Source: Pararhizobium sp. A13 (GTDB taxonomy: Bacteria > Pseudomonadota > Alphaproteobacteria > Rhizobiales > Rhizobiaceae). From it: a stretch of DNA of 64,000 nt. Shown piece after piece: positions 29,165-45,173 of this stretch (position 1 is the first letter of the stretch; each line of letters begins with the position of its first letter). The stretch covers positions 1,178,001 to 1,242,000 of the forward strand of contig NZ_CP149511.1 in NCBI RefSeq assembly GCF_040126305.1, read 5' to 3'. The position numbers and the translations under genes are program-made. The notes under the pieces are model-generated. The model was not told the origin of the DNA. It was given only the letters and a program-made list of their open reading frames with translations, and searched no databases.

Positions 29165-29644
29165 TCACGTCTTGGGTGTCGTGGTCCCATTCTGAAGAAC
29201 GGAAACTGTCTCGAGAAGTGTGACGATCGATGACATCGTGTCATTTGGAAGGTCTTCCAGCAACTTCATCATTCGAAAGCGGGTGTCGGCTTCCTTCTCG
29301 GTCGCGCCCCATAAATGGGGGGCTGCCGAAAAGAGCATGGTAAGCGGTGAGACGCCCAATACCTCGCTTAGATGGATCAGCCTGCTGACATGCATCTTCG
29401 ATGAATTGCGTTCGTACCGGCCATAGACCTGCTCGCTCAGGCCAACGAGCGTTGCAAGCTCAGCCCTGCTAAGATTCTTGGCCTGGCGACAGTTCCTGAG
29501 TGCCTCACCGACCTTGTTATCGAGCTCAGCGAACGCGGAGATACCGTCAAATCCCTCCCGTCGGTAGACAGGCTTTTCATTTTCAGGATCCGATGTCTTC
29601 ACCAGTCCCAAGTCCGCGATGTGACTTTCCAATTTTGTCGTCAT
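29165..29644 (-). CDS. XRE-family regulator at the end of the SNase-like operon
   Basis: The 159-residue protein has a central helix-turn-helix (VGEALRNCRQAKNLSRAELA then LVGLSEQVYGRYERNSSKMH, residues about 45-85). The C-terminal helical region is of unknown role. It is the last gene of the minus-strand operon that diverges from virB1, so it is a candidate regulator of the secretion system and its accessory genes. The dyad at 32300-32320 would be a plausible target. Confidence 0.85.
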   Translation of the reverse strand: MTTKLESHIADLGLVKTSDPENEKPVYRREGFDGISAFAELDNKVGEALRNCRQAKNLSRAELATLVGLSEQVYGRYERNSSKMHVSRLIHLSEVLGVSPLTMLFSAAPHLWGATEKEADTRFRMMKLLEDLPNDTMSSIVTLLETVSVLQNGTTTPKT

Positions 29645-29722
29645 ATCCCACTAACCCAATCCGCAAGGCGCGAGTCATACATTACGATGCGGCCGAATGG
29701 CTATGCACTTCGTTGGGGGTGG

Positions 29723-30349
29723 TCAATTGAAGTGATGCTCCAGATTTGACCCCGGTGGAACTTGAACACGCCGTCGGATTTCTCGTTTTAGCCGGGGTCG
29801 CTTTTGCAGATTAAACCAGAACCGATCTGACCGATCTGTCGCCCCGTCCTTGATATCGAAATAATAGGGATCGCTGCGCCTGGGTCGCTGCTTAAATTCC
29901 GTGAATACGCACCATTCATTTCTGGAGAAGACCCGCGTAACGCCGTCGGCGGTCGTCTCGGTGCGGCTGCGGCTTGAGAATCCGGAAGAGCTGTGTCCGC
30001 CTTTGCAGGTCGTCACTGCGCGCGTGCACTGCGATTGTTCACGCGAAAATCCCTGACCCCGCACGTCGCCGCCGGTGGTTGGTGCCCAACCCGCCGGGCA
30101 ATCCGCATATTTCTCATAACCTGGTTTGCCGGCGCCACCTTTGGGGCAGGTTGGCCAGGAAAATCCAGGCCCCTTCATCGCGGAAATCAATTTCTCCATC
30201 GGAGGATGGCATGCCGGAACGCTGTGCCAGGATGGATTGGAGGAAGCCGCGCAAAGGAGGACTTCGCAGCCCCATTCATTGGCTTTGGAAGGAGACATCA
30301 GAAAACTGGCGACTGTGACTGAGAGCATCGATGCGAGCAGGTTTTTCAT
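29723..30349 (-). CDS. Secreted cysteine-rich protein of the T4SS accessory operon
   Basis: The 208-residue protein has a signal peptide (MKNLLASMLSVTVASFLMSPSKA) and a ribosome site GGAGAGAGG. The mature part has eight cysteines (WGCEVLLC, VPACHPP, WPTCPKG, YADCPAG, SQCTRAVTTCKGG, EWCVF), enough for four disulfides, and a basic C-terminus (KRPRLKREIRRRVQV). No enzyme motif was recognised. It follows three SNase-like genes and precedes an XRE regulator, so a periplasmic or surface role with the adjacent VirB system is inferred. Confidence 0.72.
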   Translation of the reverse strand: MKNLLASMLSVTVASFLMSPSKANEWGCEVLLCAASSNPSWHSVPACHPPMEKLISAMKGPGFSWPTCPKGGAGKPGYEKYADCPAGWAPTTGGDVRGQGFSREQSQCTRAVTTCKGGHSSSGFSSRSRTETTADGVTRVFSRNEWCVFTEFKQRPRRSDPYYFDIKDGATDRSDRFWFNLQKRPRLKREIRRRVQVPPGSNLEHHFN

Positions 30350-30378
30350 AGGCCTCTCTCCCTACAGGCGACGAACGA

Positions 30379-31050
30379 TTATCGGTCGCGACGTGACGGC
30401 TGGCGTCGCGCGTCCGTGAACGGCGGTGAAATCTCGCTGCTGCGCTCAGAAAGAAGGTTGAGATCCGCGAGCGGCCGGCGACCCGCCGTCTTGTCGATTG
30501 CCTTTTGACGCCACTCGGCCATGTCGAGTACATAGGTCGCCCACATCCCATATCGGGCGGCGACGGCATGGTGTTGTGCGTCAAGGTATCCACCGTTGCG
30601 CGAAACGGGCGCGATCAGTCTCGCCCATCCGACGCGCAGCATTTCGTGAGCGATATCCCGACCGCTTGCCTTGCAGACGCCGCTCGCCACATCAGAAACG
30701 TCTCGAACGGCAAGGCTACAGCTGACGACGCGACTGCCCACGGTGCGCTTCAACCAAGCCTTCGCCAGGGCGCCGCATGGCACGGGGACAAGAGAACTAT
30801 TCCTGGCTTGGGCCGCCCTTGGATCAAAAGCCCATTGCGGCAGATCACAGCTGTCGATTTCTCTCAACCGTACAAGCATTCGGTGGTTGGCAAACCAAAG
30901 CGTTCGTCCGTCGATCACAACCACTTGCCCCGATACCGTACCTCGGCGGACAACCACCTGCTTTTCCGACGAACCACCGATCACGTCGGCCGCCCTGCCC
31001 TCGCCGGAAGCGATCAAAACTGAGAGAGCGAAAATCACCGTCCGGATCAT
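30379..31050 (-). CDS. Secreted SNase-like (thermonuclease-fold) protein
   Basis: The 223-residue protein has a short signal peptide ending near ASGEGRAA. The SNase fold is visible as VSGQVVVIDGRTLWFANHRM, LVRLREIDSCDLPQ and GRDIAHEMLRVGWARLI with YGMWATY at the end. The first catalytic Asp of the IDGDT motif is Arg here and the Glu after the IDxP segment is lost, so nuclease activity is doubtful. Four cysteines lie at positions comparable to those in the two upstream paralogues. Its start overlaps the previous stop by four bases. Confidence 0.8.
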   Translation of the reverse strand: MIRTVIFALSVLIASGEGRAADVIGGSSEKQVVVRRGTVSGQVVVIDGRTLWFANHRMLVRLREIDSCDLPQWAFDPRAAQARNSSLVPVPCGALAKAWLKRTVGSRVVSCSLAVRDVSDVASGVCKASGRDIAHEMLRVGWARLIAPVSRNGGYLDAQHHAVAARYGMWATYVLDMAEWRQKAIDKTAGRRPLADLNLLSERSSEISPPFTDARRQPSRRDR

Positions 31051-31586
31051 GGTGCCCTCTTTGCGTTCTTCGCCGCATGACTGAGGAAAACTGCCGGATG
31101 CTGGACGTCCGTGAACCGCCAGAGCCCTCTGCGCCTCTCGCGTGCTACCTGCTCTGCGACAGCATAGGGAGCATGGACCGGCAGTCCGTCGGCTCTCAGG
31201 GTTGCGAAACCGTAACCCTCCGTGATCATCATCATTGCGAGGTCAAGTCGCTCGTTCCCGACCGCGGCGTAGCATATGACGAAGGTTAGATCGTCCTGTT
31301 CGGCCACCGGAGCACAGACGGGTTCTGTGTCCTTGATGAAGGCAGCCAGAACTGCGATCGACGCTTCGCCGCAATCGCGTCTGGTTCCTGACCGGTCAGT
31401 GTAGGAGGTGCCTCGCAAACAAGACTGGAGCCCATAGAGCCGAATGCGTTTTCCCCCGGTAACGACGGTGTCTCCCGTTTCGAACACAGCGCCTTGCGAG
31501 AGCTCGAAATAACCCGCGGGCGCAGCATGGACTGGGGTCACGGAAAGGGTGGCCGCAATCGCGCTCTTGATCAGGAATGGCTTCAT
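31047..31586 (-). CDS. Secreted SNase-like protein, second paralogue
   Basis: The ATG at 31586 overlaps the upstream stop (ATGA), giving 179 residues beginning with a signal peptide (MKPFLIKSAIAATLSVTPVHA). SNase-like blocks are VVTGGKRIRLYGLQSC, RLDLAMMMITEGYGFA and RERRRGLWRFTDVQHPA. The catalytic acidic residues are not conserved. Four cysteines match the pattern of its neighbours (LQSC, RRDC, PVC, VIC). It is translationally coupled on both sides, implying a fixed ratio of the three proteins. Confidence 0.78.
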   Translation of the reverse strand: MKPFLIKSAIAATLSVTPVHAAPAGYFELSQGAVFETGDTVVTGGKRIRLYGLQSCLRGTSYTDRSGTRRDCGEASIAVLAAFIKDTEPVCAPVAEQDDLTFVICYAAVGNERLDLAMMMITEGYGFATLRADGLPVHAPYAVAEQVARERRRGLWRFTDVQHPAVFLSHAAKNAKRAP

Positions 31587-32215
31587 TGCGCCACCACCCT
31601 CGGATCGGCCCACATGCCAAATCCGCCCCGGCCGATTCTCTCTGCGTCTTCAAGATCCGGCCGCATCAGAGTACCGTCCTGCTTTCTTGACAGTCGAAGG
31701 GCTCCAAGCGAAACCAGTTGTTCCTCAAAGTTATCAACCGTGTCCAGGGTGCCCGGATAATTGTAGTATCCGAAGCAGGTGGCATCCTGCAGAGGCGCAT
31801 TTCGCTCGGTCAGGAACGCGCGGCAAAAGATGACTTTGGCAGCTTTCAGCATGATATCCAGCTGCTCGCGCGCATAGTCACCACAGCCACCTGCGAAACC
31901 CTCCTTCTGGTTGACCATTTCGCCCCGGCAGGGCTCAAGCCCATACAGGTGCAGACCAACTTCGGCATCGACCGCGATATCCACGGGCGACTTGGCGCGA
32001 AATCCGCTCGGCGAGGCGAACCCCATTCGATCCACGATCTTTCCTGCGGGATCATAGTATTCGACCACCAGAACCACCTTTCCGGGGGCGGCCAGCGATT
32101 TCACATAGGCACGATCGACTGCCCCGCCGGCCCATGCCTGGGCGGCCAGGAAAATGGCTGGCCCTGCGAGGATTGCTCGTTTGCGGATAATTCGCGTTAC
32201 CGATTGCGTCAACAT
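31583..32215 (-). CDS. Secreted SNase-like protein, first gene of the accessory operon
   Basis: The ATG at 32215 gives 210 residues with a signal peptide (RKRAILAGPAIFLAAQAWA); the frame opens earlier, at 32329. The fold is more diverged than in the other two: HLYGLEPCRGEMVNQKEGFA, GCGDYAREQLDIMLKAAKV, ATCFGYYNYPGTLDT and ERIGRGGFGMWADPR. The four-cysteine pattern (EPC, GGC, IFC, ATC) is retained. It heads a five-gene minus-strand operon divergent from virB1. Nuclease function is unlikely. Confidence 0.7.
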   Translation of the reverse strand: MLTQSVTRIIRKRAILAGPAIFLAAQAWAGGAVDRAYVKSLAAPGKVVLVVEYYDPAGKIVDRMGFASPSGFRAKSPVDIAVDAEVGLHLYGLEPCRGEMVNQKEGFAGGCGDYAREQLDIMLKAAKVIFCRAFLTERNAPLQDATCFGYYNYPGTLDTVDNFEEQLVSLGALRLSRKQDGTLMRPDLEDAERIGRGGFGMWADPRVVAQ

Positions 32216-32299
32216 GGATACATCCAGTGGGTGTAATTTTTCGCTTTGCGACTCAACATTTTCATTGTAGATATGAACATATTCGGTAACGACTGAAAA

Positions 32300-32320
32300 G
32301 GGAAATTGCAACAGTTTCCC
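32300..32320. promoter_or_regulatory. 21-bp dyad between the virB and SNase-like operons
   Basis: GGGAAA and TTTCCC arms are separated by nine bases, inside which TG and CA also pair in symmetry. The element lies 60 bases before the virB1 start and 85 before the first SNase-like gene, a good position for a shared operator. Confidence 0.5.
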
Positions 32321-32379
32321 AAAACTCAACGGCCTTTGAGCACGAGACCGAACAGCAACGGAAAATGTGAGGACGAACC

Positions 32380-33264
32380 TTGAGATTGAAACGGATCAGC
32401 ATTTTGGCCGCCCTGCCCGTTCTCGTATTTCCTTTCGAGGATGCATATTCATTTGATAATAAGCGCTTTTCCAGCGGGACATTACGACCTTTCGATACAC
32501 CAGCACTGATCGTTGACAGGCGCTCATCGAGACCAGCCGAAGGTTTTGTGCTCGAACCTTCCGGGACTCTTGTCAAAATCCAGCATGCCCAAGGCATGAA
32601 CAAATCTTGGTCATATGCGCGCCCAACGGCCGCTCTCGAGACCGCGAGGGAGCCATCGCGGGATGAAATCAACTCGTCCAAAAATATGAACACGTCATAT
32701 TCATACATGGCTAAACGTCCGAGCCTTGCGACCGAATGCGGCGCCTCTCCCATGAAACCGGGGGAGATCGAAGATCTTGTCGGTGTTACGGCTAAAGCCT
32801 ATGGCGTCGATCCCGAATTTGCCAAGGCGATCGCGTGGGCGGAAAGCCGGTTCGATCAGACCCGCAATAGCCCGGAGGGTGCACGCGGGCCAATGCAACT
32901 CATGCCCGACACCGCGTTCAGTCTCGGTGTGCGAGACCTGTGCGATCCGGCATCCAATATTGACGGCGGGGTCCGTCACCTCAAAGCCCTCATCGACGAA
33001 TTCAAGAACCCGCTGGTCGCGGCCGCGGCCTACAACGCCGGCAGAAGGGCCGTCTATGACAATGGCGGCATCCCGCCCTACGGCGAAACCATCCGCTACG
33101 TGGCCTCAGTCATCAATCGCGAACTCGGTCTGCAGATACGGCGCCAAGAGCGCGACACGCGCGATGCGATATCCGCACATGAACCATCCATTCCCGACCG
33201 GAAGGCCAGCGGCGTAATCGGCGGACGAGGCATCCGGTTCGTCAACGGTGTCATGCACTTCTGA
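32380..33264 (+). CDS. virB1: VirB1-type lytic transglycosylase
   Basis: The 294-residue protein starts at TTG behind GTGAGGACG and has a signal peptide (MRLKRISILAALPVLVFPFE). The C-terminal SLT domain reads VDPEFAKAIAWAESRFDQTR near residue 145 (catalytic Glu in WAESRFD), then GARGPMQLMPDTAFSLGV and LVAAAAYNAGRRAV. It opens peptidoglycan for assembly of the secretion channel. The N-terminal half is a low-complexity linker with a duplicated MNKSWSYARP / MNTSYSYMAKRP motif. Confidence 0.92.
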   Translation: MRLKRISILAALPVLVFPFEDAYSFDNKRFSSGTLRPFDTPALIVDRRSSRPAEGFVLEPSGTLVKIQHAQGMNKSWSYARPTAALETAREPSRDEINSSKNMNTSYSYMAKRPSLATECGASPMKPGEIEDLVGVTAKAYGVDPEFAKAIAWAESRFDQTRNSPEGARGPMQLMPDTAFSLGVRDLCDPASNIDGGVRHLKALIDEFKNPLVAAAAYNAGRRAVYDNGGIPPYGETIRYVASVINRELGLQIRRQERDTRDAISAHEPSIPDRKASGVIGGRGIRFVNGVMHF

Positions 33265-33280: not shown

Positions 33281-33619
33281 ATGAAGCTCATCCTATCGCA
33301 AAGACAAAAGAACGCAGTGCGTTTCGCTACGATCCTGTCGGCGCTTGCGGCATCGCAGCTTATCGCCGCGGACATCGCGATGGCGCAGGCTACCAATCAG
33401 GCTTTCGCGCCACTCCAGACGGTGGTTCAGGCGGTTGTTGATTTTATCACCGGTCCGTTCGGTCGCTTGGTCGCCATCATCGCCGTCATCGGCCTTGGGT
33501 TCCTGGCGTTTGCCGGCCGTCTGAGCTGGTTCACGGCAGGAGCAGTTGTCCTTGGCATCGGGCTTGTGTTCGGCGCGCCGGCCATTGTCGACCAGCTGAT
33601 GTCGACCGTCGGGAATTGA
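33281..33619 (+). CDS. virB2: VirB2 major pilin
   Basis: The ATG at 33281 follows GAGGAGACGGAA and gives 112 residues. A long signal peptide ends near IAMAQA. Two hydrophobic helices (GRLVAIIAVIGLGFLAFAGR; TAGAVVLGIGLVFGAPAIV) follow, the standard VirB2 layout. It would form the pilus. Position between virB1 and virB3 confirms identity. Confidence 0.93.
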   Translation: MKLILSQRQKNAVRFATILSALAASQLIAADIAMAQATNQAFAPLQTVVQAVVDFITGPFGRLVAIIAVIGLGFLAFAGRLSWFTAGAVVLGIGLVFGAPAIVDQLMSTVGN

Positions 33620-33622
33620 GCC

Positions 33623-33922
33623 ATGGCCGAGTTCGAAGACGACAAGCCGGCCCTCACGCCGTTGATCATCGGTCTCACGCGTTCGCCCACACTGTGGGGT
33701 GTTCCCTATATGGCGATTGTCGTGGTCATCGGGCTTACGATCATCGCCTGGCTCGCGACCAACACCGTATGGGCGCTGCTGACCGCGCCGGTTGCCTACC
33801 TCATTCTCTTCACGCTTTGCACGTGGGACAGCCGCATTCTCGATGTGCTGCAGGTCGCAGTGCGCATGACGCCGAAGACGCCCAACAAGCCGTTCTGGGG
33901 CGCCAACTCCTACGGACCGTGA
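33623..33922 (+). CDS. virB3: VirB3 inner-membrane protein
   Basis: The 99-residue protein has a short cytoplasmic N-terminus, the LTRSPTLWGVPYMA family block near residue 19, and two predicted membrane helices, matching VirB3 in size and position. It lies three bases after virB2 and five before virB4. Confidence 0.93.
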   Translation: MAEFEDDKPALTPLIIGLTRSPTLWGVPYMAIVVVIGLTIIAWLATNTVWALLTAPVAYLILFTLCTWDSRILDVLQVAVRMTPKTPNKPFWGANSYGP

Positions 33923-33927
33923 CGGCC

Positions 33928-36342
33928 ATGCTGAAACTCATCCGCGAAGAGCTTGGCTTCGGAGCCATCGCCGGTCGGGAAAAGCCGATGTCGAAGCATA
34001 TCCCCTATCTGCGGCATGTCGCCGACACGGTGGTCAAACTCGAGAGCGGCGCTCTCCTCTCCGTCATTCGCCTGAACGGCCTGTTTTTTCAGACAGAGGA
34101 TCAGGCTGAACTGAACATGCGGTCCGTCGTCCAGAATACGATGATCCGGGCGCTCGGCTCCAGCCGCTTCTCGCTGTGGTCCACCGTGATTCGCCGACAG
34201 GTCGAAGGTGATCTCGCAGGCTCATTCGAGGATCCGTTCTGTGATCTGCTCAATCGCCGCTACATGGCGCAGCTCAGCGAAAAGCGCATGTTCACCAATG
34301 AACTCTACCTGAGTGTGTTGCGCACCGGAATGCGAGGGGCGCTTGCGGCCGGCGACAAGGCGCGTCGCCTCATAACCAGAGCAGGATCGCACGAAGCGGC
34401 CGAGGATCAGTTGCGGGAATCCGTCAGCGAGCTCGAAGAGCTTGTCGGCAATATCTGCCGCGATTTGCAAAAGTACGGGGCTCGTCCGCTTGGCATCACC
34501 TACCGCAACGAAGAGCCCTATTCCGAGCCCAGCGAATTCTTCGATGCCCTGGTGAGCTGCGGCATTCCCCGACAGATGCGCCTGCCCCGCATGAGTATTG
34601 CATATTATGTCGGGAGCTCGCGCTTGCACTTCTCCAGGCGCACCCTGCAGGTGCAGGGACCGACAAAAGCGGACGACCGTTTCGGTGCCATGCTGTCGAT
34701 CAAGGAGTATCCGCCCTTTACGGGTCCAGGCATGCTCGACGGGCTCTTGCAGGTCAACCATGAATTCATTCTGACGCAGTCCTTCACGATTGCCGATAAG
34801 CCGATCGCTCAGGAGCGGATCTCACGCCTGAAGCGGCAAATCGCGGCGTCCGACGAAGCCGGCAGTGACGTCGAGAACGATATCGATTTCGCCCTCAACA
34901 GCCTGATGAACCAGGAGGCGGTGTTCGGCCTCCATCACATGACCCTGCTTTGCCTGTCGCGCGATCTGGATGGCGTCAACAAGGCTGTCTCGGATCTCGG
35001 CGCCGGCCTGACAGACATGAATGTCAATTGGCTGCGGGAAGACCTCAATCTCGAGGCAGCGTTCTGGGCGCAACTGCCCGGCAATCATGCCTACATCGCC
35101 CGGAAGGCTCTCCTCTCCAGCTCCAATTTTGCCGGTCTTTCCTCGATGCACAACTTCGCCGCCGGTCAAACCGACGACACCCATTGGGGCACGCCGATCA
35201 CCATCCTGGAGACGACCAGCCAGACGCCCTATTGGTTCAATTTCCATCGAAGGGACATCGGCCATTTTCTGGTGACCGGCCCGACCGGCTCCGGCAAGAC
35301 CGTCGCTCTCGCCTTCCTGCTTGCTCAGGCCTTCCGGGTTCAGCCCACGCCCAAGGCTGTCTTCTTCGACAAGGACCGAGGCGGTGAGACGTTCGTTCGC
35401 GCCATGAATGGCGCTTACGAGGTTCTGACTCCTGGAACGCCCACGGGTTTTAATCCGCTTCAGCTGGAAAATGCCGGGCCAAACCGGGAGTTCCTCTTGC
35501 GCTTGCTGAAGGCGATGCTTCGCCGTGGCGATGGCCGCGACTTCGATCAGGAAGAAGAGGACATTCTTGAGCGTGCTTTGCTGCGGCTCATGCAGGAGCC
35601 CGCGGCCCAGCGAAACCTTGCGAACCTCGCAGGGCTCTTGATCGGCCGGTCGCGGGCTGGCCCGAACGACCTGAATGCGCGCCTGCGGCCGTGGATCGAC
35701 GGAGAAAAGGCCTGGCTCTTCAACGCTCCGCACGATGTCCTCACCCTTTCGGACCGCAGGGTGTTCGGTTTTGACATGACCAACATTCTCGACAACGAAG
35801 AGCTCAGAACGCCGGCCTTGATGTACATCTTCCACCGTCTCGACGAGCTTCTCGATGGTTCGCCGGTGATGATCTTCATGGACGAAGGCTGGCGCCTTTT
35901 GCGAGATCCAACCTTCAGTGATTTCATCGTCGACAAGATGAAGACGATCCGAAAACTGAATGGGATCGTCGGGTTCGGCACCCAGTCGGCGGCCGATATC
36001 GCGCGCGCCCCCGCATCCCACACGCTGATCGAGCAATCATCGACCAACATCCATTTTCCCAATCCGCGCGCCGACGAGGAAAGTTACATCCGGCGCCTTG
36101 GGCTGACGGTGAAGGAATTCAACTTCGTCCGGACCACGCCGCCCGAGAAGCGCACGTTTCTCATCAAGCATGGCAACGACAGCGTCATTGCCAGGCTCGA
36201 CCTCAGCACAATGCCGGACATGATCAAAGTGTTGTCCGGCCGCAAGGAGACCATCGAGGAATGCGCGCGGCTAAGGCACGAACTGGGTGATGCGCCGTCT
36301 GCCTGGCTCCCGCAATTTTGCGGTTGGGAGGCCTGGCCATGA
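33928..36342 (+). CDS. virB4: VirB4 secretion ATPase
   Basis: The 804-residue protein starts at the ATG at 33928 (MLKLIREELGFGAIAGREKP); an open frame running further upstream is antecedent noise. Walker A (GPTGSGKTVA) is at residues 451-460 and the Walker B block MIFMDEGWRLLRD near 655. TQSAADIARAP follows in the conserved position. It energises pilus biogenesis and substrate transfer at the inner membrane. Its stop overlaps the next start. Confidence 0.96.
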   Translation: MLKLIREELGFGAIAGREKPMSKHIPYLRHVADTVVKLESGALLSVIRLNGLFFQTEDQAELNMRSVVQNTMIRALGSSRFSLWSTVIRRQVEGDLAGSFEDPFCDLLNRRYMAQLSEKRMFTNELYLSVLRTGMRGALAAGDKARRLITRAGSHEAAEDQLRESVSELEELVGNICRDLQKYGARPLGITYRNEEPYSEPSEFFDALVSCGIPRQMRLPRMSIAYYVGSSRLHFSRRTLQVQGPTKADDRFGAMLSIKEYPPFTGPGMLDGLLQVNHEFILTQSFTIADKPIAQERISRLKRQIAASDEAGSDVENDIDFALNSLMNQEAVFGLHHMTLLCLSRDLDGVNKAVSDLGAGLTDMNVNWLREDLNLEAAFWAQLPGNHAYIARKALLSSSNFAGLSSMHNFAAGQTDDTHWGTPITILETTSQTPYWFNFHRRDIGHFLVTGPTGSGKTVALAFLLAQAFRVQPTPKAVFFDKDRGGETFVRAMNGAYEVLTPGTPTGFNPLQLENAGPNREFLLRLLKAMLRRGDGRDFDQEEEDILERALLRLMQEPAAQRNLANLAGLLIGRSRAGPNDLNARLRPWIDGEKAWLFNAPHDVLTLSDRRVFGFDMTNILDNEELRTPALMYIFHRLDELLDGSPVMIFMDEGWRLLRDPTFSDFIVDKMKTIRKLNGIVGFGTQSAADIARAPASHTLIEQSSTNIHFPNPRADEESYIRRLGLTVKEFNFVRTTPPEKRTFLIKHGNDSVIARLDLSTMPDMIKVLSGRKETIEECARLRHELGDAPSAWLPQFCGWEAWP

Positions 36343-37421
36343 AACGGCTTGCTCTCCCGCTTTTCGTGGTTGCCGCGGTCGATTTGCCGCCTTCAGCCAG
36401 GGCCGATGTCCCCGTGATCGACAAGACGATCCTCAGCCAAGACACAGTGCGCGACGGGACGGCGAGCGCGATCGAAGACACCGACAAAGACCGCCACACG
36501 ATCAATACCTCGGTTACCTGCTCGATGTATCGCCCTTCGCGTCGAAACGATCCGGTTGGTGCCGCCGAGCAAAACTCGGAGATCTCCGGGCTGGTGCGCC
36601 GTGTCGCACGCGAAGAGGGCGTCGACGAAAACGAGTTCCTCGCGCTCGTCTATCAGGAAAGTCGGTTCAACCCTTGCGCCAAATCCGGCGCTGGCGCGAC
36701 CGGACTTGCGCAATTGATGCCGGGTACCGCAGACGATCTTGGCGTTAACGAGAACAACATCGAGGACAATCTGCGAGGCGGCGCCCATTTCTACAAGCGG
36801 CAGCTGTGGCGCTATAACGGGAACGTCGCGCTGGCGCTTGCCGCCTATAACTCCGGTCCCGGCAACGTCAACAAATACGGTGGGATTCCCCCATTCAAGG
36901 AGACCCAAGGCTACGTCCGCAGCATCACCCAGGACTGGTTGCCGGCCTTCGGCGGCTCGGAAAAGTCGGGCATTCCACTGAACTACGGTGGTGGCGAAAC
37001 AGCTTACACAGGCATGCGGGACTCCACCCTGAATGCCATGGGTACCACGGCTGCGACGTCGGAGAGCTTGGCCAATGTGGGAAGTTGGTACCAACAGTTG
37101 GCGGGTCTGCAGACCGGGACCATCCAGGACAGCTGGGACCATAACTCCACCGCGCGCAACGCCAATCTGGAAATGATGAACAACGTCATCAAACTTAGCA
37201 CTGCGATGGCCGATCTGATCAATTCCCGCAACGCCGTTGCGGCTTCCGATCTCTCAAGTTCGTCGCAATCCACGCAGCGCGGCGGCGACGAAGACAAGTC
37301 GGGCGATACGACGGGTCTCTGCGACGCGCAACAAAAACTGGCGTGGGATCCCGTGAAGCAGGCCTGCGTCGAACAACGCGAAGGTGACGCCGACGTTCAG
37401 CTGTTGCTGCAACCCCAATAG
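36339..37421 (+). CDS. Second lytic transglycosylase with VirB5-like ends
   Basis: The ATG at 36339 overlaps the virB4 stop and gives 360 residues with a signal peptide. After cleavage it begins ADVPVIDKTILSQDTV, closely like the mature start of the VirB5-like product downstream (ADVPVIDRQNYEIAKQ). An SLT domain follows (LALVYQESRFNPCAKSGAGA near residue 100; GLAQLMPGTADDLGV; VALALAAYNSGPGNVNKYGG). The C-terminal helical region (ARNANLEMMNNVIKLSTAMA) again resembles VirB5. It occupies the slot between virB4 and virB5. An operon with two transglycosylases is unusual. Confidence 0.88.
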   Translation: MKRLALPLFVVAAVDLPPSARADVPVIDKTILSQDTVRDGTASAIEDTDKDRHTINTSVTCSMYRPSRRNDPVGAAEQNSEISGLVRRVAREEGVDENEFLALVYQESRFNPCAKSGAGATGLAQLMPGTADDLGVNENNIEDNLRGGAHFYKRQLWRYNGNVALALAAYNSGPGNVNKYGGIPPFKETQGYVRSITQDWLPAFGGSEKSGIPLNYGGGETAYTGMRDSTLNAMGTTAATSESLANVGSWYQQLAGLQTGTIQDSWDHNSTARNANLEMMNNVIKLSTAMADLINSRNAVAASDLSSSSQSTQRGGDEDKSGDTTGLCDAQQKLAWDPVKQACVEQREGDADVQLLLQPQ

Positions 37422-37434
37422 AGGAGAGCCGATC

Positions 37435-38136
37435 ATGAAGCTTGCGACGATAACTGCTGCATTTGTCTTGTTGCCGCTTGGCCTCGCCCTTGCCGATGTG
37501 CCGGTCATCGACAGACAAAATTACGAGATCGCCAAACAGACGGCGGACACAACCGACCGGATCCTCGACACCAACAAGAATATCCTGACCACGGTCAAGG
37601 ATACGCTGAAGGCCGTCACCGGCGATCGGGGCAGCACTGCCGAGCCATTGCAAAACCTTGCAATCGGCCAGGGCTTCAGCGTCTCGTCCATGCCATCCCT
37701 CGATAGCCTGATCAAAGGCGGCGTCCCGGATTTCGGCAATATGAGTGGTGATGTTTCGAAAGTCGCCACAGCCTTCATCAACGGCCTGCAGTTGGTGAAA
37801 TCTCTTTCCGGCACCGAGAACAGCAATTTCTCCGGCGATAAATCCTACGAGCAGTTGGTCAATACCGTGCTTGGCGTTTCAGCCCTGATCAACGGGTCGC
37901 AAACGGCAACGGAAGCGCGGCGCAGTGCCTTTGAGGCGGCTGGACAACAGATCGGCAAGGCCGAGGATATCAAGGGTTCGATCGACCAGAATACCCAGCT
38001 GCAGGTCCAGTCGGGCCTCACCCTCAATGAAATGATCGGGGTGATGAATGGCGCCGTGACATCGCTGCAGGCGGAGAACCAGCGCCGCCTGACCGACATT
38101 TCGAACAGCAAAAAAGCCCTCACCTATGGAAATTGA
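37435..38136 (+). CDS. virB5: VirB5-like minor pilin component
   Basis: The ATG at 37435 follows AGAGGAGAGCCGATC and gives 233 residues. It has a signal peptide (MKLATITAAFVLLPLGLALA) and then a helical mature protein (AKQTADTTDRILDTNKNILT; VQSGLTLNEMIGVMNGAVTS), as in VirB5/TraC pilus-tip proteins. Position before virB7/virB6 supports the call. Confidence 0.88.
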   Translation: MKLATITAAFVLLPLGLALADVPVIDRQNYEIAKQTADTTDRILDTNKNILTTVKDTLKAVTGDRGSTAEPLQNLAIGQGFSVSSMPSLDSLIKGGVPDFGNMSGDVSKVATAFINGLQLVKSLSGTENSNFSGDKSYEQLVNTVLGVSALINGSQTATEARRSAFEAAGQQIGKAEDIKGSIDQNTQLQVQSGLTLNEMIGVMNGAVTSLQAENQRRLTDISNSKKALTYGN

Positions 38137-38140
38137 CCTG

Positions 38141-38341
38141 ATGCGGCCGCTTGTTTGCTTGAGTGCCATCCTTGCCATGGCAGCTCTATCGGGGTGCGGA
38201 ACCGTCAAGGAAAAAACCGCCCCATGCAAGCGGCCGGCTGAGCTCAGTTCCTATGCGCAAGATCCGCGCCAGACCTGCGGGGCGATGCGCGCGATCAACG
38301 ATCCGGCCGCCGCGTTCGCAGCCATTGGAATGGAACAATAG
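38141..38341 (+). CDS. virB7: VirB7-like lipoprotein
   Basis: The small protein has 66 residues from the ATG at 38141 (71 from 38126, which overlaps virB5). The lipobox LSGC follows a short signal peptide (MRPLVCLSAILAMAALSGC). Two further cysteines (APCKRP; QTCGAM) could pair with each other or with VirB9. Position before virB6 and size support VirB7 or the related EexN-like group; sequence alone does not separate them. Confidence 0.72.
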   Translation: MRPLVCLSAILAMAALSGCGTVKEKTAPCKRPAELSSYAQDPRQTCGAMRAINDPAAAFAAIGMEQ

Positions 38342-38344
38342 GCA

Positions 38345-39364
38345 ATGGAAGACTTTCTCGGCGACCTGCTGCAGCGTATCGAGGATTCCGGGACGACGTT
38401 TTCGGAAAAGGCGTACACGGTCGTCGGCCAGGAAATCATGCCGCTGCTGCAAATCATGCTGGTGGCCTATGTCGCGTATTATGGTCTTCAGCTGTTTCTG
38501 GGCACCGCCCGGATCGGCGTTTCCGAAATTATCGGGCGCATCGTCCGGATGATGATCATTCTGGCGCTCGTCAGTTCCTGGGCGAACTTCAACAATCTGT
38601 TCTACCACTGGATCAACGACACGCCCGAGGACGTCGGTCGTGCGATCCTGGCCGCGTCCGGTACCGGCATCACCGAGCCAACCAACGGATTGTCGCAGAT
38701 CTGGAGGACCGCCAATCAGGCCGCTTCCGCCTTTGCAGAGCAATCCGGCTATTTTTCCGTCCTGCCCAGCATGATCGGGGTACTGATCATGGTCGGGGCC
38801 GGCGTGTTTATTGCCGTCGCACTGGCGATCCTCATTCTGGCGAAAGTGATGCTGTGGGTGTTGATCGGGACAGCGCCGATTTTCATCGCCTGCATGCTGT
38901 TTGAGAAAACCCGGGGATACGGGGTCGGCTGGTTCAATCAGGTCCTGACCTACGCGCTGATCCCGTTGTTCATCTATGTCGTCGCCTCCTTTCTGATCGC
39001 CGCCATGGACCCCGAGCTCTCCCAGATCGATGCGGCGAGCGGCGCCAGGACGCTGACGCTCGCCGACATTGCCGGGTTCCTGCTTCTCTGCGCGGCTGGC
39101 GCATTCGTCATGTTCTACATCCAGTCGATCGGACAGGGTATCGCTGGCGGCATTGCCGCTGGCGTCGGATCAGTCGGGACCAGTATGGCGAAAAAGGTGG
39201 GCATCAAGGCGCCCATGGCCGCTGGCCTCGGAGCCAACTCTGCGGGCCGAGCGGCTTACAGAGCCGGCCGTTCCTTGCGCGATCGATACCGCGGCGATGG
39301 CGACAACTCTGGCACCAAGGCCGCGATGCAAACAAAAATAACGCAGCACAGCACACCGGCCTGA
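38345..39364 (+). CDS. virB6: VirB6 polytopic inner-membrane protein
   Basis: The 339-residue protein has at least five predicted membrane helices. EIIGRIVRMMIILALVSSWA near residue 60 and LAKVMLWVLIGTAPIFIACM near 165 are conserved in the TrbL/VirB6 family. The C-terminus is a Gly/Ala-rich soluble tail. It starts three bases after the lipoprotein stop. Confidence 0.92.
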   Translation: MEDFLGDLLQRIEDSGTTFSEKAYTVVGQEIMPLLQIMLVAYVAYYGLQLFLGTARIGVSEIIGRIVRMMIILALVSSWANFNNLFYHWINDTPEDVGRAILAASGTGITEPTNGLSQIWRTANQAASAFAEQSGYFSVLPSMIGVLIMVGAGVFIAVALAILILAKVMLWVLIGTAPIFIACMLFEKTRGYGVGWFNQVLTYALIPLFIYVVASFLIAAMDPELSQIDAASGARTLTLADIAGFLLLCAAGAFVMFYIQSIGQGIAGGIAAGVGSVGTSMAKKVGIKAPMAAGLGANSAGRAAYRAGRSLRDRYRGDGDNSGTKAAMQTKITQHSTPA

Positions 39365-39400: not shown

Positions 39401-40093
39401 ATGGCGGGTACGAATGACGAACGTCTACGCACTTACTATCAAAGCGGTGATATCTGGGAACAGGAGATCGTCAAGAAAGCAAAGCGCTCGCGAACACTCG
39501 CCTGGTTAGTCACGAGCATCTTTGGCGCCATTACCCTCGTCAGTCTGGCCACGCTCGCCATGCTCGTTCCCTTGAAAAGCTTCGAGCCCTATATCGTCGA
39601 AGTCGACAGGAATACCGGCTATGTCGAGGTGAAGACCGGCCTGACGCGACCGACAAACCTTACCGAGCAGCAGGCGGTGACCCAGGCTAATATCGTCCGC
39701 TACATCCGGTCGCGCGAAGGCTACGACCCCTATGCCATCGAGCAGAACTTCGGCATCGCCGCGCTTCTATCGACAGGAAATGCCGCTCGCGAGCTCCAGG
39801 ACCTGTATAGCGCTGCCAACGCCCGGAATCCCGCCAGAGTCTACGGCAGGAGCAAACGGGTCACGACCGAGATCGCTTCGGTCACCTTTCCGAACGCCAG
39901 CACCGGCATCGTGCGCTTTGCGACCGTCGAACAATCGGAAACGGAGTCCATTCCCCGTCATTGGATCGCTGTTGTCCGATATCGCTATACCGACACGCCG
40001 GCGACAAATGAGTGGCGCTTCGAGAACCCCCTTGGTTTCCAGGTCTACGATTACCGCCGTGACCAGGAAACGGTCACCGAGGGGAACCGCTGA
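39401..40093 (+). CDS. virB8: VirB8 assembly factor
   Basis: The 230-residue bitopic protein has a cytoplasmic N-terminus, one membrane helix (residues about 34-56, including SIFGAITLVSLATLAMLVPL), and a periplasmic NTF2-like domain containing ARVYGRSKRVTTEIASV and HWIAVVRYRYTDTPATNEWR. It nucleates core complex assembly in the family. Its stop overlaps the virB9 start. Confidence 0.95.
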   Translation: MAGTNDERLRTYYQSGDIWEQEIVKKAKRSRTLAWLVTSIFGAITLVSLATLAMLVPLKSFEPYIVEVDRNTGYVEVKTGLTRPTNLTEQQAVTQANIVRYIRSREGYDPYAIEQNFGIAALLSTGNAARELQDLYSAANARNPARVYGRSKRVTTEIASVTFPNASTGIVRFATVEQSETESIPRHWIAVVRYRYTDTPATNEWRFENPLGFQVYDYRRDQETVTEGNR

Positions 40094-40902
40094 TGATGCG
40101 GCTTCGTTTCCTTGCTGGCATGATGACAATCGCCTCGCTTCCCACCGCCTTCGCAGCCCAGACCCCGGCCTCCGGTCGCCTCGATCCGCGCGTCACGAGC
40201 GTCGTCTATCAGCCGAACAACGTTGTTCGCGTGTTTGCCACCTATGGCATCTCGACGATGATCATCTTCGACGAGGACGAGAAATTCGAGACTGTTGCCT
40301 TGGGTGATACCGATAGCTGGGACGTTGTTCCGACCGACAAGGGCAACATCCTCTTCGTCAAACCCAAGGCGAAAAACGTCACGACCAATATGAATGTCGT
40401 CACCACCAAGCGCATCTACTACCTTGAGCTCAACGACTATGCGCCCGAAGACGGCAAAAACGTCTTCGGCATCCGCTTCGTCTACCCCGAGAAGGATCTC
40501 AATGCCTCCTTGCGAAAGGAGGCAGAAGCGCGCGCGGCCAATCCGAACATCTCGGAAATCGACAAGGCCAACGTCAATATCGACTACTCGTTTTCCGGTG
40601 ACAGCAAACTGAAGCCGCTGATGGTTTTCGACGACGGGAAAAAGACCTTCTTCAAATTCGGCGCCCGCGTGCCGGCGATCTTCGCCGTCAATGCCGACTT
40701 CACGGAGACGCTTCGAAACTTCCGGCGTGAAGGCGACTACCTCGTCATCGACGGCACTGCGACCCAATACACACTGCGCGATGGCGATCAATGGACCTGC
40801 ATCTTCAATCTGAGGAAGCCGGACTTCGGCGCCCCCGACCCCGATATCATGGCACCAGTCCCAGATGGAAAAGCGACGACACGCCGTAGGAGTGGAAACT
40901 GA
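40093..40902 (+). CDS. virB9: VirB9 outer-membrane-complex protein
   Basis: The 269-residue protein has a signal peptide ending near LPTAFA. The N-terminal domain reads RLDPRVTSVVYQPNNVVRVF; the C-terminal domain shows VNIDYSFSGDSKLKPLMVFD and TFFKFGARVPAIFAVN. With VirB7 and VirB10 it forms the core complex. It shares one base with the following gene. Confidence 0.95.
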   Translation: MMRLRFLAGMMTIASLPTAFAAQTPASGRLDPRVTSVVYQPNNVVRVFATYGISTMIIFDEDEKFETVALGDTDSWDVVPTDKGNILFVKPKAKNVTTNMNVVTTKRIYYLELNDYAPEDGKNVFGIRFVYPEKDLNASLRKEAEARAANPNISEIDKANVNIDYSFSGDSKLKPLMVFDDGKKTFFKFGARVPAIFAVNADFTETLRNFRREGDYLVIDGTATQYTLRDGDQWTCIFNLRKPDFGAPDPDIMAPVPDGKATTRRRSGN

Positions 40903-42152
40903 TGCAGCGGTCTCCCGAACTCGAAGCAATGCTGGCCGGCGACGAGACGGCAGTGAAGGACAAGCGAGCGCGGCGAAAGCAGTTCCTCGGAAGTGCAGCA
41001 CTTGTCCTCGGCGGCGCGGCACTCGCCTATATCGTCGTCTTCGCGCCCGAAAAGCGCCTGCCAGAAAGTGTCAAGGGCGACGAGGAGTTCGCAACCACGA
41101 CCTTCCGGCCGCCCTCATTTCTGCGTGATGATCAGAAGCAGCCGGAAAAAGAACCCGATCCCATCATCAAGTTGCCGGATCCTCCCCCCGAGGAGAAAGA
41201 GGAGGAACCATCGGACACGACTGAGTTCAACGTTCCGCCTCCGCCTGGTATCGTTGAGGTTGAGGGCGAAACGCCGGTCCAGCCTGTGGAAGTAGAAGAA
41301 TTTCCGAAGCGTTTCCTGTCAAAGCAGGTCGTGGTGGACACCGCAGATGCCGACAATGGACAAGGACCCCTCACGTCTGGCAACGACGAAGGCAGGCCGA
41401 CCGTCGCTGGCGAGGATCGCAACAGCAAGTTCCTCGCGACCGCATCGGCAATTGGTGACCGATCGGCAAAAGCGCGGCAAATCGGGCGCCTGGATGCGAT
41501 GATCCCCGAGGGAACTTTGATCCCTGGCCTGCTCGAGACCGCGATCAACAGTGATCTACCAGGCCAGATTCGAGCCATCGTCTCACAGGATGTCTATTCC
41601 TTCGATGGACGTCGAGTGCTGATCCCAACCGGCACACGGCTCATCGGCGAGTATCAGTCAGAGGTCACCCGTGGTCAGAAACGCATCTTTGTCATCTGGA
41701 CCCGTCTTCTTCGCGACGACGGCGTGTCGGTCAGGCTGAACAGCATCGGCACCGATAGCCTTGGTCGCTCCGGGTTGACCGGCCTCGTCGACAACAAGTG
41801 GCGTGAGCGTTTCGGATCGGCGATCCTCTTGTCGATTGTCGGCGCCGGATCAAGCTATCTGACCGGCTATGGCAGCGGCCAATTTAGTAGCAGCGGGGAC
41901 GGCGAATCCAATTCCGATCGCGCCGCTGAGCTTGCCCGCGAGACGATCGCCCAGACCTTCTCCGACATGGCCAATCAGGCGCTCGCAGAAAACCTCAAGA
42001 TTTCGCCGACGATCCGCGTTCACCAGGGCGAGCGCATCTTCGTCTACGTCCGCCAGGACCTCGATTTCTCCGCCATGTATCCGGACCCGGTCGAGAACGC
42101 CTTGAAGGAGATCAAGCATGAGCGAGGCCTTCGCCAAAATCAAAGCCGCTGA
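40902..42152 (+). CDS. virB10: VirB10 core-complex protein
   Basis: The 416-residue protein has one membrane helix (residues about 28-47), a proline/glutamate-rich periplasmic linker (KLPDPPPEEKEEEPSD), and the C-terminal TrbI-like beta-barrel domain (IPEGTLIPGLLETAINSDLP near residue 205; GTRLIGEYQSEVTRGQKRIF; INPTIRVHQGER-type block as KISPTIRVHQGERIFVYVRQ). Its 3' end overlaps virB11 by 35 bases. Confidence 0.95.
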   Translation: MQRSPELEAMLAGDETAVKDKRARRKQFLGSAALVLGGAALAYIVVFAPEKRLPESVKGDEEFATTTFRPPSFLRDDQKQPEKEPDPIIKLPDPPPEEKEEEPSDTTEFNVPPPPGIVEVEGETPVQPVEVEEFPKRFLSKQVVVDTADADNGQGPLTSGNDEGRPTVAGEDRNSKFLATASAIGDRSAKARQIGRLDAMIPEGTLIPGLLETAINSDLPGQIRAIVSQDVYSFDGRRVLIPTGTRLIGEYQSEVTRGQKRIFVIWTRLLRDDGVSVRLNSIGTDSLGRSGLTGLVDNKWRERFGSAILLSIVGAGSSYLTGYGSGQFSSSGDGESNSDRAAELARETIAQTFSDMANQALAENLKISPTIRVHQGERIFVYVRQDLDFSAMYPDPVENALKEIKHERGLRQNQSR

Positions 42153-43146
42153 GAACAGCCCCTACTATTTCCTGGAACGGGCTTTGGATCCGCTGCGCGC
42201 ATTCCTGGCCGATCCCACCGTCGTCGAGATTTCGGTCAATCGGCCGGGCCATGTCTACATTGAGCGGCTTGGCGCGGAGGTGATGGAACATCATCATATC
42301 CCAGTGCTCACCGCGGCAGAGATCGAGAATATCGGCGAGCGCGTCGCCGGCGCGACGCACCAGTTCATCAGCCGCATCAATCCCATCCTGAGTGCTGCAC
42401 TTCCGACAGGCGAGCGCATCCAGATCGTGCTCCCGCCCGCAGCCGTCGATGGCGGCGCCATCTCGATCCGCAAACAGGTCACCAGCAACTTCACCCTTGA
42501 GGAATATCGCGACAACGGCTCGCTGGAAAAGGTGTCGGTCGCCGTTGGCGGTCTGAGCGAGGTCGAACGTGACCTGATCGAGCTCCTGCGCGCGGAGCGC
42601 ATCTACGACTTCATTCATGCTGCAATTCGCAAACGGGTTTCGATCCTGATCAGTGGCGGCACCTCGACTGGCAAGACGACGTTCCTGAACGCTTGCCTGA
42701 AGTCCATCGACCTATTCGAGCGCATCCTGACACTCGAAGATACGCGTGAGCTATTTCCACCGCAGAAGAATGCCGTCCATCTCCTGGCGTCGCGGGGCGA
42801 TCAAGGCACGGCACACGTCAGCATCCAGTCATTGCTCGAGGCGTCTCTGCGTATGCGGCCTGACCGGCTGTTCGTCGGTGAAATCAGGGGCGCGGAGGCT
42901 TTTGCCTTTCTGCGCGCAATCAATACCGGTCACCCCGGAAGCATGTCCACAGTCCACGCGGACACGCCGCTTGGTGCCTACGAACAGCTGGCGATGATGA
43001 TGCAGCAAGCGGGAATGTCGTCCGGTTACTCCAAGCAGGATCTGATGTCCTACATCCAGATGGTCATTCCGGTCGTGATCCAGCTTCGTCGCGACGGTGG
43101 CTGCCGCGGTGTATCGGAGATTTACTTTGCCAGGCATGCGGCATGA
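42118..43146 (+). CDS. virB11: VirB11 traffic ATPase
   Basis: The 342-residue hexameric ATPase has Walker A GGTSTGKTT at residues 180-188, an Asp box near LTLEDTRELF, Walker B SLRMRPDRLFVGEIRGAEAF, and the His box NTGHPGSMSTVHADTP. It switches the channel between pilus assembly and substrate transfer. The start lies inside virB10, and its stop overlaps the coupling protein start, so translation is coupled. Confidence 0.97.
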   Translation: MSEAFAKIKAAENSPYYFLERALDPLRAFLADPTVVEISVNRPGHVYIERLGAEVMEHHHIPVLTAAEIENIGERVAGATHQFISRINPILSAALPTGERIQIVLPPAAVDGGAISIRKQVTSNFTLEEYRDNGSLEKVSVAVGGLSEVERDLIELLRAERIYDFIHAAIRKRVSILISGGTSTGKTTFLNACLKSIDLFERILTLEDTRELFPPQKNAVHLLASRGDQGTAHVSIQSLLEASLRMRPDRLFVGEIRGAEAFAFLRAINTGHPGSMSTVHADTPLGAYEQLAMMMQQAGMSSGYSKQDLMSYIQMVIPVVIQLRRDGGCRGVSEIYFARHAA

Positions 43147-45173
43147 ACAGGACCTATCTGGCGGCCTATCTGCTCTTTTGTTGCCTCATCGCGGTTGCGG
43201 TGTGGGTGCTGAGCTACGCTGTCATCCTGCAGCTCGTCTACGAGGATGGTCGAGTGCTTCAGTTGACGGTGACCGCAAATCCGTTCACGCCTTTCCAACA
43301 GCTCATGCGCTATTCCGACAATCGGCCTCTGCAGATCGCGGCCGTTGGTGCACTATTGCCGGCAATGATGATGGCGAGCGCTGCAGCCGCCTTTGGTCTT
43401 CAGAGACCCTCCAACCCGCTCGGCGACGCCGCGTTCCAGGACGTCGCCTCGATCCGGCGGGGGAGGTGGTTTCGAAAAGATGGACATATATTGGGACGGC
43501 TCGGCCGCAAGATTCTACGACGGCGGGACGATCGGCATCATCTCGTCATCGGCCCGACGCGCTCTGGAAAGGGCGTTTGCTATGTCATCCCCAACGCACT
43601 GACCTTTCCGGGATCCATGATCGTCACTGATCTCAAGGGCGAGATCTTCCAGCATACGGCTGGCTATAGAAAGTCGAATGGCCATCAGGTCTTTCTGTTC
43701 TCGCCGGGCGCGAAGAAGACGCATCGATGGAACCCGCTTGACTTTGTCCGGCAAGATCGCGGAAGCCGCACGATCGATATCCAGAATATGGCGAGCATCC
43801 TCATTCCCGAGACCATCGGCTCGGAAAACGCGGTGTGGCAAGGGACTGCGCAACAGGTCATCGCCGGTGTCATCAGCTACGTGCTGGAAAGCACCCGCTA
43901 CAAGAACCGGCGCAATCTTGGCGAGGTCAACAGCATCTTGAATGCAGGCGTCGATTTGCAGGGGCTGATGAAGTTGATCAAGGAGAAGGAACCCGACCTT
44001 TCCAGATTCACGACCGACAGCTTCAACGCCTATATCGCCCTGAACGAGCGAGCCGCGCGATCAGCACTCCTGGATATCCAGAAGGCGATGCAGCCGTTTC
44101 GCAATGAGCGGGTGATTGCGGCAACCAACGTGACCGACATCGACCTTGCATCGATGCGCCGTAGGCCGGTGTCGATCTACCTTGCCCCGAATATCAGCGA
44201 CGTCACCCTCTTGCGGCCGCTCCTCACCCTGTTCGTACAGCAGAGCATGGATCTGCTTACGCGTGAATTTGATCCGGGCGCCCTGCCCGCCTATTTCCTC
44301 CTCGACGAGTTTCGGCAGCTGAAGAAAATGGACGAGATCATGAACAAGCTGCCCTACGTGGCCGGCTACAACATCAAAATAGCCTTCGTCATTCAGGATC
44401 TCAAAAACCTCGACGAGATCTATGGTGAGACATCACGCCATTCCTTGCTCGGCAATTGCGGTTTGCAGCTTATTCTTGGTGCCAACGACCAGGCCACGGC
44501 CGAGTATGCCTCCCGCGCGCTTGGCAAGAAAACCATCCGGTACAAATCCGAATCCCGCACGCTGGAACGGATGGGCCTTCCGCGTCGAACAAAAGTCGAG
44601 CAAATTCGCGAACGTGACCTGATGATGCCACAGGAAGTGCGACAGATGCCGGAGGATCGCATGATTCTTCTGGTCGAAGGTCAGCGGCCGATATTCGCAG
44701 GCAAGCTCAGATATCATGAAGTCGGCCCGTTTAAGATGGCGGCACAAGTATCCCTCGAAAACAAGCCCGTCGTTCCAGAGACGGAATTTGTTCCCTCGCT
44801 TCCAGTGCCGGCAACCGAAGCGGAGTACGGTGGCTCTCCACGTTCGATCGGGACCGACGTAACACCGATCACGACAGCGACCAGTGCCGATATTGTGCCT
44901 TTAATGATCGCCAGGAGTTTGCCCGTGAGCTCTCGCGTTCGGAAATTTCCCGGCAGCGACGGCAATGCCGCAGCGGAAGGCGGCCGCGAGGAAGCAGCAC
45001 TTTACCGCAGCACGGGGGTAGAGGCCCAGTTAAAACCGACCGCAGAGCGTTTGCGTGAAGTGGTCGAATCGACGTTGGCTCAAGCCCCAGGTCTTTCAGC
45101 GCGCGACCGCCGGAGTATTGCTGAAATTCTCAACCAAACAGTTCCGGACCCGGTTGAAATAGGTCTTGCATAG
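43143..45173 (+). CDS. virD4: VirD4/TraG-type coupling protein
   Basis: The 676-residue protein has two N-terminal membrane helices, Walker A GPTRSGKGV at residues 137-145, Walker B AYFLLDEFRQLKKMDEI, and TraG-family blocks (GSMIVTDLKGEIFQHTAGY; KNLDEIYGETSRHSLLGNC). It recruits substrates to the channel. The C-terminal 130 residues are variable and may bind a cognate relaxase or effector. No relaxase gene lies in the window, so the substrate class is open. Confidence 0.96.
   Translation: MNRTYLAAYLLFCCLIAVAVWVLSYAVILQLVYEDGRVLQLTVTANPFTPFQQLMRYSDNRPLQIAAVGALLPAMMMASAAAAFGLQRPSNPLGDAAFQDVASIRRGRWFRKDGHILGRLGRKILRRRDDRHHLVIGPTRSGKGVCYVIPNALTFPGSMIVTDLKGEIFQHTAGYRKSNGHQVFLFSPGAKKTHRWNPLDFVRQDRGSRTIDIQNMASILIPETIGSENAVWQGTAQQVIAGVISYVLESTRYKNRRNLGEVNSILNAGVDLQGLMKLIKEKEPDLSRFTTDSFNAYIALNERAARSALLDIQKAMQPFRNERVIAATNVTDIDLASMRRRPVSIYLAPNISDVTLLRPLLTLFVQQSMDLLTREFDPGALPAYFLLDEFRQLKKMDEIMNKLPYVAGYNIKIAFVIQDLKNLDEIYGETSRHSLLGNCGLQLILGANDQATAEYASRALGKKTIRYKSESRTLERMGLPRRTKVEQIRERDLMMPQEVRQMPEDRMILLVEGQRPIFAGKLRYHEVGPFKMAAQVSLENKPVVPETEFVPSLPVPATEAEYGGSPRSIGTDVTPITTATSADIVPLMIARSLPVSSRVRKFPGSDGNAAAEGGREEAALYRSTGVEAQLKPTAERLREVVESTLAQAPGLSARDRRSIAEILNQTVPDPVEIGLA

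Follow-up and report, generated by a model that had tools for sequence, protein, structure and literature searches.

Nuclease-like proteins with lost catalytic residues encoded beside a virB/virD4 cluster in Pararhizobium sp. A13

The stretch of DNA analyzed here (the window) comprises 64,000 nucleotides of Pararhizobium sp. A13 (NCBI RefSeq assembly GCF_040126305.1, contig NZ_CP149511.1, positions 1,178,001 to 1,242,000) and is part of contig C2 in a three-contig genome of 6.36 Mb. Three consecutive genes of the window, A, B, and C, encode proteins resembling staphylococcal nuclease (SNase) and are followed by genes for an eight-cysteine protein (D) and an XRE regulator (E), divergent from the virB/virD4 genes of a type IV secretion system (T4SS) (Table 1). 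A, B, and C lack catalytic residues that ordinary homologues keep, and the set is strongly tied to the T4SS in related genomes. We regard it as somewhat probable that A–C are pseudonucleases that, together with D, serve as periplasmic accessory subunits of rhizobial conjugative T4SSs.

Catalytic residues, fold, and cysteines of A, B, and C

The loss of catalytic acids from A–C, claimed in the original prediction, was upheld by a structure-numbered alignment of 75 proteins, in which no intact active site came to light in the window. The alignment consisted of 24 ordinary homologues and 51 T4SS-linked proteins, the latter a chosen sample including 12 each of A, B, and C. The residues D21, R35, D40, E43, and R87 are all kept in 24/24 ordinary homologues, and the full set occurs in none of the 51 T4SS-linked proteins, all of which have lost R87. 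Zero (15 proteins), one (7), two (21), or three (8) of the five residues are kept in the T4SS-linked group, and the window's A, B, and C keep none, two, and two. For the ordinary homologues, 30 loci matching the Pfam family PF00565 were fetched, three of which gave no open reading frame (ORF) by phmmer; the remaining 27 all have an intact DGD[TS] motif, and three low-cysteine proteins among them (L028, L036, and L056) were excluded from both the tree and the residue table. Also excluded was a fragment in L023, which has an in-frame stop.

Each protein has lost its residues in its own manner. D21, R35, D40, and R87 are gone from all 12 A rows, one of which has a Glu at the E43 position. The window's B keeps the equivalents of D21 and R35 and has lost R87, with Gln for D40 and Leu for E43 (motif QxCLRG); among the 12 B rows, R35 is present in all, the D21 position is acidic (10 Asp, 2 Glu), and the two replacements are constant. 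In the window's C, R35 and D40 are kept, D21 is replaced by Arg (IDGRT), E43 by Asp, and R87 is lost. The 12 C rows have D40 in 12, R35 in 10, Glu or Asp at E43 in 11, and Arg for D21 in 11. The remaining row, L060, has SGDT there and is without R35, E43, and R87. Wider sets were the best 120 of 293 homologues for A and the best 120 of 564 for C, the window's own proteins included. Among the 120 of C, the D21 position is Arg in 115 and Asp in none, D40 is present in 118, E43 as Glu or Asp in 116, and R35 in 106. In Staphylococcus aureus nuclease, loss of these residues ruins activity. The pattern strongly indicates that A–C are non-nucleolytic.

The claim that the three proteins share the SNase fold also held, by different routes. 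A qualifies mainly through its predicted fold, which is of the SNase (OB) type with extra N-terminal strands ahead of the core; A has no match to PF00565, and its profile comparison with B gave an E-value of 4e-4 at a probability of 33%. B and C score 13.6 and 16.9 bits with PF00565, below the cut-off of 21, and a C orthologue scores 27.3 bits, above it. The best curated matches of B (1.1e-7) and C (1.4e-8) are the NCBIfam PRK06518 models NF005081–NF005083 ("hypothetical protein"), the cut-offs of which (283–424) are far above the best B/C score of 34.8 bits, about a tenth of the cut-off; L019, a single SNase linked to a T4SS of another class, comes closer (247.6 bits against 283). C is strongly basic, B near-neutral, and A mostly acidic (median isoelectric points of 9.8 for the 120 C homologues and 5.9 for A), and C has a conserved C-terminal tail. 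A hydrophobic N-terminus with a plausible AxA-type cleavage site was found in A–D and not in E by a crude check other than SignalP, which agrees with the signal peptides first proposed and suggests that A–D are exported.

A, B, and C contain exactly four cysteines each (A 96/111/131/147; B 56/72/91/105; C 68/92/111/126), the last two of which are separated by 15, 13, and 14 residues, as originally described. All four are invariant in 120/120 A and 120/120 C homologues, so the pattern is above chance. It is, however, not peculiar to the set, since 24 of the 27 ordinary homologues also have exactly four core cysteines, with a third-to-fourth spacing of 14 residues in all 24. In the alignment, cysteine 2 is present in all but three proteins (of the SN3/T3 forms) and cysteines 3 and 4 in all 75, whereas cysteine 1 follows the IDxPE motif in 22/24 ordinary homologues and occupies the Pro of that motif in 48/51 T4SS-linked proteins. 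The four-cysteine property, and with it the capacity for disulfides, is ancestral to the secreted SNase family; the one derived trait is that the first cysteine has moved into the catalytic loop. Two ordinary homologues, L037 and L040, keep the five catalytic residues with the first cysteine already at the Pro position and are possible evolutionary intermediates. The shift could thus be older than the loss of activity, or it could have occurred on two occasions. As A–C are predicted to be exported, their conserved cysteines are probably disulfide-bonded. The set thus has the SNase fold, predicted export, and cysteines 2–4 with their spacing in common with secreted alphaproteobacterial thermonucleases of PF00565, and differs from them in its catalytic losses and in the cysteine that replaces Pro. 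Such ordinary relatives with all catalytic residues are encoded in the same genome (C1:3059790 and C1:3439975) and are available for comparison.

Linkage to T4SS loci and relatives beside other classes

A tblastn search of PLSDB with C returned 115 plasmid records, most frequently from Sinorhizobium, Rhizobium, and Agrobacterium. In all six plasmid regions opened, B, C, and A or an A-like stretch adjoin virB1 in divergent orientation, A being interrupted in L006. The neighborhood was then surveyed in 297 genomes of the family, in which a locus was counted as near if it lay within 20 kb of a VirB4 match; C matches were divided into strong (≥200 bits) and weak (<200 bits), and B matches were taken at ≥100 bits. 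Coordinates were transferred to the distance table by hand, and two partial C matches (G105, second piece of a split gene) were left out. Near VirB4 were 41/45 A loci, 38/43 strong C loci, and 48/56 B loci, compared with 8/83 weak C-profile matches, which are mostly ordinary SNases. Those eight consist of six SNases linked to T4SSs of other classes and two loci at 18–19 kb from the IVb-type virB4. The proposed tie to a T4SS was therefore borne out, and homologues were not commonly found away from one. Among the A and C loci without a nearby VirB4, those of G252 and G030 are on contigs 3.4 kb long, in G086 the contig ends 0.8 kb past A and VirB4 stands at the start of another contig, and in G074 virB1–virB4 is cut by the contig end. 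Further B loci away from VirB4 are those of G194, G140 (C92), G252 (C831), and G245. Conversely, 39 of the 41 VirB4s of at least 1200 bits have a member of the set near, the other two belonging to the split-contig genomes G252 and G086.

In passages of PMC13274422, the mating-pair formation (Mpf) systems of S. meliloti pSmeLPU88a and of pSymA-like plasmids of SM11, RU11/001, and others are typed IVb, and that of pSmeLPU88a is called conjugatively functional. C orthologues are found on the SM11 and RU11/001 plasmids, and the window's class was thus taken as IVb; the apparatus is apparently a conjugative T4SS (MPF_T, type IVb).

Dead SNase relatives also adjoin VirB4s of 35–52% identity. The sets of these other classes comprise a triplet with D (L020 and L021), A-like and B-like proteins (L024), B with D (L025), or single SNases with D (L018, L019, and L022). 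A match to the set searches lies near 4/34 VirB4s of 380–600 bits and 0/17 weaker ones. The tree, built from 72 proteins, unites all A, all B, and all C proteins in a group each (support 99/98, 98/92, and 100/100). The B-like proteins of other classes, which are 35–39% identical to B, join B, and the ordinary SNases also come together, though with modest support (90/78). Plasmids of the R. leguminosarum type, for example pRltCC275eB, encode three thermonuclease-family proteins, two small proteins, a D homologue, and an XRE regulator beside virD4/virB. The D and B partners on these plasmids share 43% and 46% identity with their counterparts in the window. T1 and T3 correspond to the SN1/SN3 forms of L020, the number of cysteines in T3 is two, and the gene order relative to virB differs from that of the window. 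For pRleVF39b (type IVa), PMC9601222 and PMC8628070 describe six genes of importance to transfer, trcA–F, as well as the repressor TrbR, which PMC7449395 names as XRE-type; like A–E, these are transfer-region genes of unknown function accompanied by an XRE-type regulator. From the pRltCC275eB layout, some trc genes are plausibly SNases, which we offer as a lead only. LPU83_pLPU83a_0136, given in part of PMC13055273 as a putative thermonuclease downstream of traG and co-regulated with conjugation genes, belongs to another plasmid group (I-C) and is a single gene.

Proposed role and rival explanations

A–C would be produced from the operon divergent from virB1, exported, and oxidized in the periplasm, probably as disulfide-bonded SNase (OB-fold) domains. 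No longer cutting DNA, they would act as binding scaffolds at the channel base or pilus base and help assembly or mating. Such a periplasmic accessory role fits better than catalysis because presumably exported, cysteine-bearing, apparently non-cutting OB-folds of unlike charge are kept beside virB1; the mechanism goes beyond the linkage and is our inference. A broader proposal, taken as a whole, is tentative: rhizobial conjugative T4SSs may have repeatedly kept dead SNases, in four or more lineages (A, B, C, and the single-gene forms), which with D would form a periplasmic pseudonuclease assembly touching the transferred DNA or the pilus base.

Several observations weigh against an accessory role. 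By sequence comparison alone, the link between A and the rest of the SNases is weak (probabilities 33% and 11%). B keeps D21 and R35 and C keeps R35, D40, and often E43, which makes residual or altered activity conceivable. G147 is a true exception to the linkage: it has A-B-C, but no virB gene was matched in the surrounding 16 kb that were taken. Beside virB1, G140 and G047 have retained A alone, with B and C not near, G073 has A and C without B, and G170 has C alone; these losses speak against an obligate A-B-C complex. The placement in type IVb comes from shared replicons and not from a tree of the window's own system. No relaxase above the PF03432 cut-off was found in the genome, in which matches to that family all scored below it, types such as MobZ not having been searched by name, and the sole MobA_MobL match (PF03389) is on another contig (C1:1281667-1282365), so transfer by the window locus stays presumptive.

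Among other explanations, the dead SNases could guard DNA, binding the transferred strand or acting as decoys for SNases secreted by donor or recipient, and so protect DNA presumed to be exposed in the periplasm. The loss of cutting residues from a retained fold, the basic character of C, and the presence of PF00565 genes in 40/41 genomes searched (own included), which supplies host SNases to counter, are compatible with this; A, mostly acidic and with its whole active-site set gone, suits it poorly, and we consider it rather unlikely. Continued catalysis in altered form, with B, C, or a B-C pair of complementary residues cleaving some nucleic acid or phosphodiester, would draw on the residues that B and C retain. 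The metal ligands D21 and D40 occur together in only one of the 24 aligned B and C proteins (L060), which lacks the other three residues, and the loss of R87 is universal in the T4SS-linked sample. An SNase site is made within one domain, which counts against complementation by a pair, and altered catalysis appears improbable.

It seems equally improbable that the set acts in entry exclusion or at the recipient surface, blocking redundant mating in plasmid-carrying recipients or shielding the envelope. The proteins are predicted to be exported, and their genes are plasmid-borne and divergent from virB1, which is compatible with this, but a separate small lipoprotein-like ORF already occupies the usual exclusion/virB7 position, and exclusion factors tend to vary fast, whereas relatives of the set are kept across unlike T4SS classes. 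Least probable is that A–C are T4SS substrates, exported or injected as effectors, and not machine parts. The linkage to virB/virD4 is consistent with this, and another rhizobial class, T4SSb, moves effector proteins according to the same passages of PMC13274422; the Sec-type N-termini fit the periplasm better than they fit VirD4 substrates, and the apparatus class is conjugative.

In the literature collection searched, no description of the A–C genes as dead SNases or T4SS parts was found. T4SS accessory modules are known, but we know of no conserved pseudonuclease set among them. The assembly of the broader proposal, if it exists, would to our knowledge be the first case of a pseudonuclease serving as a component of a secretion or conjugation system. 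The set suggests an undescribed accessory part of the conjugation machine. Most public records label A "hypothetical protein" and B and C "thermonuclease family protein," although B appears in some as "succinoglycan biosynthesis protein exoi"; the thermonuclease labels mislead as to role. If A–C are dead scaffolds, many kinds of rhizobial plasmid, including those like pSymA, carry an unrecognized conserved part of the transfer machine, and the set would be a clear example of secreted enzymes that have become components of a machine.

Gene layout, D, and neighboring features

Table 1. Features of the window around the SNase-like genes and the virB/virD4 cluster
Feature	Position	Strand	Remarks
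Gene E	29165-29644	-	XRE/HTH_3 regulator
Gene D	29723-30349	-	predicted exported eight-cysteine protein
Gene C	30379-31050	-	223 aa, ATG start; predicted exported SNase-like protein, basic
Gene B	31047-31586	-	179 aa, ATG start; predicted exported SNase-like protein
Gene A	31583-32215	-	210 aa, ATG start; predicted exported SNase-fold protein
A-virB1 divergent intergenic region	32216..32379	.	presumed shared regulatory region
virB1-like lytic transglycosylase (SLT)	32380..33264	+	TTG start
virB2 (TrbC/VirB2 pilin)	33281..33619	+	Pfam
virB3	33623..33922	+	Pfam
virB4 ATPase	33928..36342	+	Pfam
Second SLT transglycosylase, within virB operon	36318..37421	+	
virB5-like	37384..38136	+	PF07996
Small lipoprotein-like ORF, virB7/eex position	38126..38341	+	position only
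virB6	38345..39364	+	PF04610
virB8	39401..40093	+	Pfam
virB9	40093..40902	+	position and annotation of relatives
virB10 (TrbI)	40902..42152	+	Pfam
virB11	42118..43146	+	Pfam
virD4 coupling protein	43143..45173	+	Pfam

The coordinates confirm three consecutive genes coupled by ATGA overlaps (A/B and B/C), followed by D after a gap of 29 bp and by E after 78 bp, E matching PF01381 with 41.8 bits. Positions 31583, 31047, and 30379, which the original prediction called starts, are the low-coordinate ends of the minus-strand genes. The gene tables of L007–L011, which are incomplete in PLSDB, list no XRE gene directly behind the operon, and E is not a constant member. In G140, a gene that we take from its motifs to be GGDEF-like (L015 3511-4536) replaces B and C between A and the XRE gene. 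Many plasmids have two extra operon genes, x for a membrane protein and z for a small anchored protein (L061, L062, L063, L065, and L075), neither of which is in the window.

Pfam matches cover VirB1, 2, 3, 4, 5, 6, 8, 10, 11, and VirD4, with VirB9 and the lipoprotein assigned by position, and the cluster is accordingly of the virB1-B11/virD4 kind. A and the virB1-like gene lie on opposite strands, 164 bp apart. In plasmids W02 (66.7 kb) and W04 (255 kb) (loci L009 and L011), mirror-image copies of AGGGCTAGAA precede A and virB1, one each, and these two copies are the only ones in each plasmid. W01 has two copies, both elsewhere, W03 has the A-side copy only, and the window has no exact copy. 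The reversed pattern also occurs once in 3/4 records, so placement, not number, is telling. The mirror-image arrangement suggests joint control of the A operon and virB1 in W02 and W04.

Searches with two D-like queries at E 1e-3 reached 455 and 509 plasmid records, Sphingobium among them, and in Sphingobium D directly precedes virB1, with no annotated SNase in the stretch shown. D has in common with the TrbM/KikA/MpfK family, exported proteins of conjugation loci, the N-terminal motif C-x3-LC...C. Comparison with TrbM of IncP plasmids (R751 TrbM) by hhalign gave an E-value of 3e-4 and a probability of 39% over 54 columns, partly signal peptide. The Pfam TrbM model matched none of seven D rows nor seven further D-like proteins, and a TrbM family search of 142 genomes returned no match anywhere, the controls likewise being without a match; the likeness of D to TrbM appears weak and at the level of the motif. 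At 29723-29800 of the window, D extends about 25 residues beyond the FNLQ/R end common to its relatives, as if the usual stop had been lost.

Elsewhere in the genome (G000), a second VirB4, 37% identical, is encoded at C1:1256707-1259031; together with the MobA_MobL relaxase, it probably belongs to another transfer system. A CobT-type VWA domain protein (PF11775; 45422-46345) adjoins virD4 in the window. At the other end of the locus, a small ORF (28844-29143) is convergent to the operon, and a counterpart of similar size, orientation, and place occurs in L006–L009 and L011; L015 encodes a similar-looking one.

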